Shown here piece after piece: positions 4,482 through 33,214 of a stretch of 35,314 nucleotides of DNA. Positions within the stretch are counted from its first letter, which is position 1, and each line of letters begins with the position of its first letter. The position numbers and the translations under genes were made by a program. The DNA is taken from assembly GCA_030647415.1 (NCBI GenBank), contig JAUSKB010000008.1, positions 1-35,314 of the forward strand, given 5' to 3'. Below the pieces are notes generated by a model. It saw nothing but the letters and a program-made list of their open reading frames with translations. It ran no database searches and was not told where the DNA came from. This DNA is from a bacterium (GTDB taxonomy: Bacteria > Patescibacteriota > Minisyncoccia > UBA6257 > GWB1-50-10).

Positions 4482-4500
4482 GCGATGAGACGAATGGTTT

Positions 4501-4605
4501 ACCCTGTTAGAGTTTTGCACATAGTCTTACGTACTGCACACATACTTGTACCAGCAGACGAATTATACCTTTGAAAGTTGCGCGCGTGCAAAACTCTAAT
4601 AGGGT
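4501..4605. mobile_element. MITE-like element copy A
   Basis: ACCCTGTTAGAGTTTTGCAC ... GTGCAAAACTCTAATAGGGT terminal inverted repeats, 105 bp, TA on both flanks. Confidence 0.7.
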
Positions 4606-4621
4606 ATAATACTATCAAGTT

Positions 4622-7535: not shown

Positions 7536-7557
7536 TGAGTAGGAAGATACAAGATTC

Positions 7558-7659
7558 ACCCTGTTAGAGTTTTACCCGCACGCCGTTATCTTGATACCGA
7601 GTAGCATACAATACTAATCGAATGCGTGCAATAAAGTGTTTGTAAAACTCTAACAGGGT
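7558..7659. mobile_element. MITE-like element copy B
   Basis: ACCCTGTTAGAGTTTTAC ... GTAAAACTCTAACAGGGT, 102 bp. Confidence 0.7.
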
Positions 7660-7686
7660 AAAAGAGAAAAGAGATAAAGAGGGGGC

Positions 7687-7730
7687 AACAACATCCTTAC
7701 ATACTGGAGTATGTAAGGATGTTGTTTTTC
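7687..7730 (+). terminator. 19-bp perfect stem with T-tract
   Basis: AACAACATCCTTACATACT GG AGTATGTAAGGATGTTGTT TTTC. Confidence 0.65.
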
Positions 7731-8733: not shown

Positions 8734-8736
8734 GCG

Positions 8737-8774
8737 AATATACCGTATATAACGGCCGTTATATACGGTATATT
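8737..8774. repeat. 38-bp palindrome family PAL-A, copy 1 (perfect dyad extends to 8736-8775)
   Basis: AATATACC GTATATA ACGGCCGT TATATAC GGTATATT. Confidence 0.9.
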
Positions 8775-8843
8775 CTCGGAGGCGTACGGCCGACACTCGC
8801 GCGCTTGCCACCAACCTAGCGAGCGGTCATACTAGAAACTCGA

Positions 8844-9320: not shown

Positions 9321-10217
9321 TCATTTCACCTGCGCCTTCCGGCCCCAGAGGTAGAGGAGCGGGCTTGCGACGAAAATCGAGGAGTAGGTGCCGAACATGG
9401 TGCCGACGAGCATGGTGAGTACAAAATAGAAAAGTGAGGTCGGGCCGAATATGAGGAGTGCGACCAAGACGAGAATGAGCGTGAGCGAGGTGTTGAACGA
9501 CCGCACATAGGTTTCCTGGACACTCTGGTTCACGATGACCGCGAGGTCCACGCGCTTCCCCTTCTCCTTGAGTAAATGTTCCCGAATCCGGTCGAACACC
9601 ACGATGGTGTCGTGCACCGAGAACCCCATGACCACGAGGAGGGCGACGATGAAATTCGTGTCGATTTCAATGCCTTTCCAGTTGCCGAGAATGGCCAGCA
9701 TGCCAGTCGGGATGATGACGTCATGGAACAACGTGAGAAGTGTCACCACGCCGTATTTCCACGACCGCACCGGTTCCGAAACCTTCCGGAAAGCAAAGGC
9801 GACGTAGAGCGAGATGCCGAGAAGCACAAGGACAATCGCCCAAAGCGCTTTCGTGCGGAGCTCGGACCCGATAACCGGACCGATGTTCGAGAAGCTCCGT
9901 TCCTGGTACTCCCCTATGCCGCGTAGCACCGTCTGATAGGTCGCGTACTCGGTGGGGGTGATACTTGGCAGGCGGATGAGAAAATCCCCGCCGCTCGCCC
10001 GCTTCACCGTCGCCTCATGTGCGGGCACGGCAACATGGAGCACTTCCACAAGCGCCTGTTCGGTCGGGGCGGAATCCATGAAGGCGACCTGCCACTGCGA
10101 GCCGCCCTTCAGGTCTATGCCCTGCCGGAGACCGAAAACGGCGATTGCGATGATGCTCGCGGCGACCACGACGGCGGAGAAGCCGAAGAACCAGTGTTTT
10201 TTGGAAATCAAATCCAT
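9321..10217 (-). CDS. secF: Protein translocase subunit SecF
   Basis: 298 aa; GIDLKGGSQW, FSVHDTIVVFDRIRE. Confidence 0.95.
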   Translation of the reverse strand: MDLISKKHWFFGFSAVVVAASIIAIAVFGLRQGIDLKGGSQWQVAFMDSAPTEQALVEVLHVAVPAHEATVKRASGGDFLIRLPSITPTEYATYQTVLRGIGEYQERSFSNIGPVIGSELRTKALWAIVLVLLGISLYVAFAFRKVSEPVRSWKYGVVTLLTLFHDVIIPTGMLAILGNWKGIEIDTNFIVALLVVMGFSVHDTIVVFDRIREHLLKEKGKRVDLAVIVNQSVQETYVRSFNTSLTLILVLVALLIFGPTSLFYFVLTMLVGTMFGTYSSIFVASPLLYLWGRKAQVK

Positions 10218-10425
10218 CCTGTTAGAGTTTTACCCTGTTAGAAATTTGCATATTAATTTATTTGCCATACACATGCCAGTGCCAAAGCAGAATGTATACC
10301 GAAAAAGCAGCGCGCATGCAAATCTCTAACAGGGTGAACACACAATCCGTTGGATGTAAAAAAATTGTTGTCGTGTAAATAAATTTTCATAAGAAATCTT
10401 TGTATTCGTAAAACTCTAACAGGAT
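10216..10425. mobile_element. MITE-like element copy C-outer, interrupted by a nested copy
   Basis: ATCCTGTTAGAGTTTTAC ... GTAAAACTCTAACAGGAT, 210 bp containing a 104-bp second element. Confidence 0.7.
10232..10335. mobile_element. MITE-like element copy C-inner
   Basis: ACCCTGTTAGAAATTTGCA ... TGCAAATCTCTAACAGGGT, 104 bp. Confidence 0.7.
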
Positions 10426-10436
10426 AAATAGGAAAT

Positions 10437-15593: not shown

Positions 15594-15651
15594 GCTGTCC
15601 CATTGTACCACATCAACGGTCTATAATGACGGCAAACACACTCCAAGGATA

Positions 15652-15689
15652 AATATACCATTAGCGACGGCCGTCACTAATGGTATATT
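15652..15689. repeat. PAL-A palindrome copy 2 (3' of PaaX/Cas2-like gene, upstream of FKBP)
   Basis: AATATACC ATTAGCG ACGGCCGT CACTAAT GGTATATT (one mismatched pair). Confidence 0.9.
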
Positions 15690-15725
15690 CTGGGCTGGTA
15701 CCCCACGCTTTAGTGTCGCGTCCTT

Positions 15726-16379
15726 TCACCTCAAATGCACCCTCGTCCGGTCCTTGAGCGTCCCTTCCCTCCCCACCTCGAAGATTTCTAGGTGGTGGAG
15801 AATACGAAGGGTGCGAGCGTCCTTCAGGAAGCGTTCGGGGAGCGACCGTGTGCCGAGCCAGACGCTCTGGTGGAGCTTCCGGTACTCGTTCCGGACGAGC
15901 ACGGCACGGACCCAGTCGCGCTTCCACCGCTCGCGCTCGGGGATGTCATAGGACACTATCGTGATCGCCGTGCGGTCGGGTCCCGGCGGGTACGACCCCG
16001 GGTCCGGAACGTGCGGGCGCTTTGCGCGCAATTGTCGTTCGCGGAGACCACGCTCGGTGAGCCGGACTGTCGCGGCTCCGCCACGGCCATGACGTTCGAC
16101 GATGCCGTCGTGCACCAAGTCGGTAATCGTCCGGTAGTAGCGGAGCCGGGACCGGAGCCGCTCGTCCCGACGCTCGGCGCGCGCCGCGAACTTCCGCTCG
16201 TGCCTCGCGGCCGCCGGACCATACCCAGGACTCGGGTGGAGGCGCATGGGCGCCGGGGTGCTCGGGTCCGTCGTGGCGGCGTAGATCTCGTCGCAAAGGT
16301 CGGTCACGATCCACTCCGTGCCGGCAAGCACCTCCATCACTTGCGCGCGCAGTGATCTCCACCGTGCCACATTCGCCAT
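15726..16379 (-). CDS. PaaX-like/Cas2-fold transcriptional regulator, paralog 1
   Basis: C-terminal ITIVSYDIPERERWKRDWVRAVLVRNEYRKLHQSVWLGTRSLPERFLKD, homologous by eye to 19250-19741; N-terminal winged-helix-like region. Confidence 0.7.
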   Translation of the reverse strand: MANVARWRSLRAQVMEVLAGTEWIVTDLCDEIYAATTDPSTPAPMRLHPSPGYGPAAARHERKFAARAERRDERLRSRLRYYRTITDLVHDGIVERHGRGGAATVRLTERGLRERQLRAKRPHVPDPGSYPPGPDRTAITIVSYDIPERERWKRDWVRAVLVRNEYRKLHQSVWLGTRSLPERFLKDARTLRILHHLEIFEVGREGTLKDRTRVHLR

Positions 16380-16385
16380 TTCATA

Positions 16386-16423
16386 ATTATACCATTAGTG
16401 ACGGCCGTAGCTAATGGTATATT
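16386..16423. repeat. PAL-A palindrome copy 3, overlaps putative -10 of paralog 1
   Basis: ATTATACC ATTAGTG ACGGCCGT AGCTAAT GGTATATT; minus strand reads TGGTATAAT 6 nt before the ATG. Confidence 0.88.
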
Positions 16424-19059: not shown

Positions 19060-19249
19060 GGCAATCCTCCGTGGTTCGCGTTTGCGCCGTCCGGAATCTC
19101 CGGTTCGCGGTACTAACGACCATTGTGAATGAACGTCTCTTTTCTACACCTCTTTCCCCGCTACGTCAATAGTAACAACTTTTGTGTGATAGCACTTATT
19201 TTGTTATCATGAATCAAACGAGCGCTTTAACCCCAAGTATGCAACCTCC

Positions 19250-19741
19250 ATGAGTTTCACCAACGACCTTTTTGAGTTCTTCGAAGAGTTCCGCGGACCA
19301 TACCGCGTCGTGCGGTACTACTACAGCAACCACTATTACCAGATACACCAGACGCCGGCACAGCGGATCGCTGACACTACCTTCCGCGTCACCCTCTCCC
19401 GGCTCAAGCAACGAGGTCTCATCGCGAATACCCGCGGCGCCTGGCACATTACCGCACTCGGCAAGCGCGAGCTCCTGAAACGCGCTCAATCGCGGACCGA
19501 GCAAGTTGACATCCGAAAGAAACAAAAATCACTCATCATCATCTTCGATATACCTGAATCGCTGAAAGCGAAGCGGAACTGGCTCCGCACAGAGCTCGTC
19601 GCGCTCGGCTTCGAGATGCTCCAAAAGAGCGTCTGGTTCGGTCCGGGGCCGCTCCCCCGCTCGTTCCTCGACAAGCTCAAAAACCTCGACCTGCTTCCAT
19701 ACATCAAATTCCTCGATGCGAGAGAATCCGATATCATCTAG
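19250..19741 (+). CDS. PaaX-like/Cas2-fold transcriptional regulator, paralog 2
   Basis: wHTH-like N-terminus; LIIIFDIPESLKAKRNWLRTELVALGFEMLQKSVWFGPGPLPRSFLDKLKNLDLLPYIKFL. Confidence 0.75.
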   Translation: MSFTNDLFEFFEEFRGPYRVVRYYYSNHYYQIHQTPAQRIADTTFRVTLSRLKQRGLIANTRGAWHITALGKRELLKRAQSRTEQVDIRKKQKSLIIIFDIPESLKAKRNWLRTELVALGFEMLQKSVWFGPGPLPRSFLDKLKNLDLLPYIKFLDARESDII

Positions 19742-19752
19742 TGAACATAGTT

Positions 19753-19796
19753 CATATTAACACGTTATATGCGGTCGCATATAACGTGTTAATATG
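19753..19796. repeat. 44-bp palindrome between paralog 2 and uvrC
   Basis: CATATTAACACGTTATATGCG GT CGCATATAACGTGTTAATATG, 21-bp perfect arms. Confidence 0.9.
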
Positions 19797-21165: not shown

Positions 21166-21197
21166 TCATTCTAACATTCTTAAGAATGTTAGAATGA
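21166..21197. repeat. PAL-B 32-bp perfect palindrome, copy 1
   Basis: TCATTCTAACATTCTTAAGAATGTTAGAATGA. Confidence 0.95.
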
Positions 21198-25448: not shown

Positions 25449-25484
25449 TCTCATTCTAACATTCTTAAGAATGTTAGAATGAGA
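25449..25484. repeat. PAL-B palindrome copy 2, 36-bp perfect
   Basis: TCTCATTCTAACATTCTTAAGAATGTTAGAATGAGA; inner 32 bp identical to copy 1. Confidence 0.95.
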
Positions 25485-27923: not shown

Positions 27924-27936
27924 ATGAGTTTAGTTT

Positions 27937-28041
27937 ACCCTGTTAGAAATTTACACACAAACATCTAAGATTTAAAAACATCAACAATGTTAAAAAAGAT
28001 ACCATTTGATACGCAGATTGTTTGTAAATTTCTAACAGGGT
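27937..28041. mobile_element. MITE-like element copy D
   Basis: ACCCTGTTAGAAATTTACA ... TGTAAATTTCTAACAGGGT, 105 bp. Confidence 0.7.
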
Positions 28042-28073
28042 TTACCCTTCACTGCCACGACAATAGGGCGATA

Positions 28074-32014: not shown

Positions 32015-32130
32015 GTCAAATCTCGCTGCTCCCCCTGCTGGACGCGTTCACTTGTGGTGAGCGGAGCCGAACCAGAACCGTGGATTGGAGGGAAGTGGCG
32101 GCGGAACTCTCGCTCATACCGGTGTTCGTA
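32015..32130 (-). repeat. ~116-bp repeat R1 upstream of 31202-31942
   Basis: near-identical to 33098-33214. Confidence 0.9.
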
Positions 32131-33097: not shown

Positions 33098-33214
33098 GTC
33101 AAGTCTCGCTGCTCCCCCTGCTGGACGCGTTCACTTGTGGTGAGCGGAGCCGAACCAGAACGGCGGATTGGAGGGGGTAGCGGCGGAACTCTCGATGATA
33201 CCGGCGTTTGCGTA
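33098..33214 (-). repeat. ~116-bp repeat R2 upstream of 32165-33019
   Basis: TCTCGCTGCTCCCCCTGCTGGACGCGTTCACTTGTGGTGAGCGGAGCCGAACCAGAAC shared exactly with R1, then diverged but alignable. Confidence 0.9.

Follow-up and report, generated by a model that had tools for sequence, protein, structure and literature searches.

A PaaX_M-type gene and the palindromes that enclose it probably form a single self-dispersing element in genomes of the CPR, a group of tiny uncultured bacteria, similar in its organisation to REPtrons, with a partner protein that combines a winged helix with a Cas2 fold. The focal example is a unit of ~770 bp, made up of a palindrome, the gene of a 217-aa protein and a second palindrome, and lies in a window of 35,314 nucleotides (Table 1). 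Comparison with related genomes revealed the unit organisation, palindrome pairs private to each unit, solitary copies linked to the gene, presence or absence of units and the copying of element ends. The initial annotation had offered two readings for this locus, a small autoregulated regulon or a REP-like mobile unit of palindrome and protein. The mobile unit is the best supported of the two and, as an organisation, it is strongly supported by flanking palindromes of its own, differing loci, gene-linked solitary copies and presence/absence.

Three copies of the palindrome family, named PAL-A, are located at 8737-8774, 15652-15689 and 16386-16423, in agreement with the initial annotation. Its strict pattern, AATATACC-N7-ACGGCCGT-N7-GGTATATT, is exact in the first two copies and fails in the third, which begins with ATTATACC and therefore misses the outer 8-mer on one side. 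Shuffled windows contained 0.00 matches to the exact pattern and 0.11 with 3 mismatches allowed. In addition, the window holds 7 palindromes of PAL-A strength, compared to 0 in first-order Markov versions of it, and the PAL-A palindromes are real and far above chance. A search of the whole focal genome (G000; 963,714 bp in 38 contigs, 99.65% complete) with a looser core and up to 3 mismatches yielded 14 copies, and none for the reversed pattern. The claimed matching of the two N7 arms is real, since 84 of 98 positions pair in the 14 copies, compared to 59% with partners shuffled (maximum 75.5%). The extended consensus reads GAAT-RTACC-N7-ACGGCCGT-N7-GGTAY-ATTC, and matches to PAL-A with no more than 1 mismatch occur in the focal genome only; the same holds for its gene clade.

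The focal gene is real as well (Pfam PaaX_M, E 1.4e-8). Both predicted positions of its palindromes were confirmed: the upstream one overlaps a putative -10 box, a layout repeated in the sister unit C19:63488, and the downstream one lies ~36 bp past the stop codon and ~40 bp before the FKBP start. Annotated neighbours of the gene are FKBP, DUF192, DUF218 and an AP endonuclease, with neither Cas1 nor CRISPR noted among them; this gene order was kept by no relative compared.

Table 1. Features of the focal unit, the second PaaX_M gene and the solitary PAL-A copy in the window.
Feature	Position	Strand	Basis or remark
Upstream (left-end) palindrome, focal unit	16386..16423	-	97% inverted match to 15651-15687
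Putative -10 box TATAAT	16386..16391	-	Outer arm of upstream palindrome, 6 bp before ATG
PaaX_M gene, 217 aa, N-terminal winged helix and C-terminal Cas2-like ferredoxin domain	15726..16379	-	Pfam PF20803
Downstream (right-end) palindrome, focal unit	15652..15689	-	Sequence, genome motif search
Solitary PAL-A palindrome	8736..8775		40 bp perfect; directly 3' of stop codon of 8170-8733 gene
Second PaaX_M gene, 163 aa, other clade	19250..19741	+	Pfam PF20803, E 6e-15; tree
Downstream palindrome of second gene, centre GCGGTCGC	19753..19796	+	Strong palindrome
Probable degenerate upstream palindrome of second gene, GTAACAAC..GTTATC	19172..19208	+	By eye; failed automatic pair test

Other repeats also occur in the window. 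A second palindrome family, TCATTCTAACATTCTTAAGAATGTTAGAATGA, is present at 21166-21197 and 25449-25484, with the two copies identical over 32 bp, and again at L168 (1718-1751). A third, AACATCCTTACAxACTGGAGTxTGTAAGGATGTT, is found at 7687-7726 and at L170 (762-803) and has compensated arms; no partner gene was found for either family. Spacers at 4497-4615, 7554-7669, 10212-10435 and 27933-28051 carry inverted-repeat pairs ACCCTGTTAGA..TCTAACAGGGT with arms ~57-70 bp apart, and a similar pair, CCCGTTAGAA..TTCTAACGGG, occurs in G033:C90 (L157). Near the right end, a 78-bp direct repeat (96% identical) lies between genes at 32015-32092 and 33098-33175.

Seven PaaX_M genes are encoded in the focal genome. 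Six of them (C19:63488, C19:74173, C19:109751, C16:1879, C35:6888 and the focal gene) are enclosed by a matched palindrome pair, with ~700-800 bp between the partners and a sequence of its own in each pair. Between the focal unit and C19:63488, identity is 72% over 779 bp; the similarity extends from one palindrome to the other and stops there, and the arms at both ends contain ATTAG in one unit and ATAAT in the other. Based on the protein tree, four of the seven genes belong to a clade private to this genome (support 100/100), which indicates that the unit has multiplied here and sits at separate loci. No genome contained near-identical gene copies of recent origin.

For the comparison with relatives, we used 59 related CPR genomes with 0-10 PaaX_M copies each; 39 of them contain such genes, and 87 genes were compared. 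The association of palindromes with such genes, which the initial annotation had singled out for comparison across relatives, is widespread: the upstream flank strongly matches the downstream flank in 83% of the 87 genes, compared to 0.4% for flanks reassigned between genes and 5% for neighbouring genes, and ~13% have no detectable flank match. A stricter palindrome-pair test was passed by 54 of the 87 genes; for these, the median unit is 728 bp long and the downstream palindrome starts a median of 24 bp past the stop codon. The named relatives, all of them CPR, are Jorgensen-, Lipton-, Wolfe-, Vogel-, Zambryski-, Harrison- and Collierbacteria and other Parcubacteria, in many cases with the same flanking palindromes. 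No relatives were found in viral contigs and phages, plasmids gave two remote PaaX-like matches, and a first contig scan with the focal protein as query gave no match.

An autoregulated PaaX-type repressor could also leave palindromes around its gene, namely as operators on both sides; the solitary sites would then make up a small regulon, and gene loss and horizontal transfer would account for the patchy distribution. The protein is indeed repressor-like, given its winged helix, its PaaX_M domain and E. coli PaaX as top fold match, and an exact TATAAT is located within the upstream palindrome or directly behind it in 20 of the 54 units, compared to 3 of 54 for the downstream palindrome. This frequent overlap with the gene's predicted -10 box makes autoregulation, one part of the regulon proposal, plausible. 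The regulon itself is not supported: solitary copies are not specific to promoters, being situated in 5 convergent, 8 tandem and 2 divergent spacers, and the vicinity to FKBP is not maintained in relatives. A regulon of FKBP and tRNA-Pro was rejected for these two reasons. Against the repressor system as a whole, most units have a matching second palindrome past the stop codon, and some solitary copies carry sequence from an element end, as described below. We consider such a repressor system unlikely, although part of the observations could be accounted for by autoregulated operators together with horizontal transfer.

Gene and palindrome coevolve. The palindromes vary from gene to gene and agree within one gene, with half-arm distances of 2.0/17 inside one unit, compared to 10.4/17 from one unit to another. 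Distances between proteins are correlated with those between palindromes (r=0.29, reached in 0 of 2000 permutations), and the palindrome centres sort with the clades of the protein tree (CATATG, CCATGG-CTATAG and CGATCG-CGGCCG). Such tracking of protein clade and single gene would not result if the palindromes were the termini of a different transposon, host-encoded or extinct, and the Cas2-fold protein a passenger that regulates these termini or profits from them. The palindromes are also mostly missing where the gene is missing. Even though the unit has no known transposase signature, target-site duplications are lacking and some palindrome families of the focal genome have no known gene there, we judge a passenger role to be very unlikely.

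Returning to the self-dispersing element, a link between the gene and solitary copies was observed for the CATATG clade. The pattern CCTCA-N-CATATG-N-TGAGG, with the arms left unconstrained, yielded 66 copies spread over 15 genomes, with up to 13 per genome; the reversed control gave 0. Of the free arm positions, 513 of 574 (89%) are complementary, compared to 45% after shuffling. Copies are present in 10 of the 11 genomes with a CATATG-clade gene and in 5 of the 48 without (Fisher 5e-7). The family CACC..GCCATGGC..GGTG is represented by 5 copies each in G011 and G063, all with C..G at one arm position in the former and all with A..T in the latter, and is absent from two congeners without this gene type.

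The initial annotation had suggested looking for empty sites, and presence and absence of a unit were observed at one site in genus g12. Here, the G011 unit is located between two conserved genes, which are adjacent without a unit in G033 and G063; G027 has another ORF at this site, and G063 carries its own relative of the G011 gene at a different locus. G021 and G060 likewise differ in presence at an orthologous site, together with a local rearrangement. All these comparisons are between species of one genus rather than between strains, and the intergenic sequences cannot be aligned. For the G001 unit, the flanks of an empty site were not found in the congener, and at the solitary site L165 the palindrome is absent in congeners with a spacer that does not align. 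As a separate observation, a tRNA-like gene beside a palindrome unit in G021:C2 (L113, 2599-2890) is apparently split by an intron-like insert; between species it retains 93-94% identity, and its orientation with respect to its neighbours is reversed in L137.

Copying of an element end is evident in G022, where two solitary copies share 79-100 bp with the 3' end of this genome's C19 unit (84-94% identity), covering the spacer behind the stop codon and the palindrome. These solitary copies arose through copying of DNA and are not convergent operators; solitary copies that match a unit end identically along 43 bp were also observed. A search for target-site duplications in the 54 units found none above expectation (2 observed, 1.3 expected), which, together with the lack of near-identical recent copies, indicates that movement of the gene is rare or old. 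No PaaX remnants were detected by tblastn beside the solitary palindromes of the focal genome. Judging from these sequence comparisons, presence/absence, similarity that stops at the palindromes and scattered 3'-end copies indicate dispersal. Independently of this, one solitary palindrome of the focal genome (C3:176; L236, G000:C3 ~170-210) resembles one end of the C19:74173 unit in its left arm and the other end in its right arm. It is a possible excision scar, as a deletion between two palindromes would leave, and, as a single case, is not proof.

The Cas2 fold is best known from CRISPR. A Pfam scan of 29 members of the family matched PaaX_M in all 29, CRISPR_Cas2 in 21 and HTH_45 in 11, and listed no transposase family, including Y1. 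The PaaX N-terminal model matched weakly in 2 of 29 relatives; neither this model nor PaaX_C matched the window proteins, which hit PaaX_M only. AlphaFold2 predicted a winged helix and a ferredoxin domain for both window proteins (pLDDT 84 for the focal protein and 87 for the second). The best PDB fold matches by Foldseek were weak (best E 0.003), with PaaX (8a39) on top and PaaX-like (3kfw, 3l09) and Cas2 structures (5xvp, 5zyf) also listed. Asp and Pro of the FDIPE motif and Ser of QKSVW, the Cas2 signature, are kept in 87 of 87 aligned proteins.

Among known systems, the likeness to REPtrons (REP/RAYT) is pronounced: one gene sits between two short palindrome copies, palindrome and protein coevolve, extragenic solitary copies follow the gene, and genomes with the gene are rich in cognate repeats. 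For rayt genes, 3' ends inside BIMEs are reported, and dispersed copies carry the gene 3' end plus spacer (Nunvar et al., PMC2817692), as observed here in G022. However, the unit is not a REPtron, because its protein has a winged helix and a Cas2 fold without an HUH/Y1 domain and it encodes no HUH transposase. The palindromes are also near-perfect and loopless with a fixed palindromic centre of 6-8 bp, no GTAG/CGTC tag is shared by listed units and solitary copies, and copy numbers reach ~15 compared to hundreds for typical REPs.

In E. coli PaaX, too, a winged helix precedes a central domain of Cas2 type (PF20803). In contrast to the window proteins, E. coli PaaX matches PaaX N, PaaX_M and PaaX_C alike, has Glu at the Cas2 Asp position (manual alignment) and has no flanking palindromes at its gene, and the unit lacks a paa operon. 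Cas2 and VapD share the FDIPE Asp, a conserved Arg and a Q-x-S-V-F/W motif similar to QKSVW, in line with the CRISPR_Cas2 matches, whereas the unit protein is fused to a winged helix, and no antitoxin partner was noted for it. A single ORF between matched ends, a promoter in the left end, dispersed copies and presence/absence at orthologous sites (G011 versus G033 and G063) are reminiscent of insertion sequences, which differ from the unit in that it has no known transposase or target-site duplication and each of its ends is itself a palindrome. In the open-access literature, preprints excluded, we found no earlier description of this gene-palindrome association.

The Cas2/VapD superfamily includes nucleases (PMC10491678, PMC11980593). 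Together with the short distance of the downstream palindrome from the stop codon, this would fit a system at the RNA level, in which transcribed palindrome hairpins act as terminators or processed RNAs in concert with a Cas2/VapD-like ribonuclease. At imperfect positions, however, the gene strand has 26 G.T and 27 A.C mismatches, so that a G.U wobble is not preferred, and the equal numbers speak for a DNA rather than an RNA structure. The missing wobble bias led us to reject RNA hairpins; as the hairpins are moreover loopless and the two sides match each other, an RNA-level system is extremely improbable.

For the self-dispersing element, we infer that the protein binds the palindromes and that the Cas2 fold takes part in mobilisation. 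The protein, probably as a dimer, would bind its own palindrome through the winged helix, reading the fixed centre and the outer blocks as sequence, while the variable middle would merely be kept complementary. Binding at the upstream palindrome would cover the -10 box and repress the gene. The palindromes may be extruded as hairpins at the replication fork and recognised by the same protein, followed by nicking by the Cas2-fold domain with its invariant Asp or by host enzymes. In this way palindromes, and occasionally a whole unit, might be copied or moved without target-site duplication. The lack of such duplications argues against a transposon of the DDE type; it would be compatible with recombination or with a route that uses single strands or hairpins.

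As a more tentative proposal, which may well not hold, the units would constitute a new class of mobile element. One Cas2-fold protein with a winged helix would suffice, in the absence of Cas1 and of any known transposase, to recognise the cognate palindrome and to spread both palindromes and gene in CPR genomes. The units could represent a present-day case of a Cas2-type protein that serves DNA mobility outside of CRISPR. If so, a family common in CPR and filed under the name of a repressor domain would be partnered with palindromes in a system analogous to REP/RAYT but based on an unrelated enzyme, and a class of repeats would be accounted for in genomes thought to be streamlined. The units would also provide many natural protein-palindrome pairs for studies of recognition. 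Moreover, Cas2-type proteins would gain a role in DNA dispersal without Cas1, which would bear on the origin of the CRISPR adaptation module.
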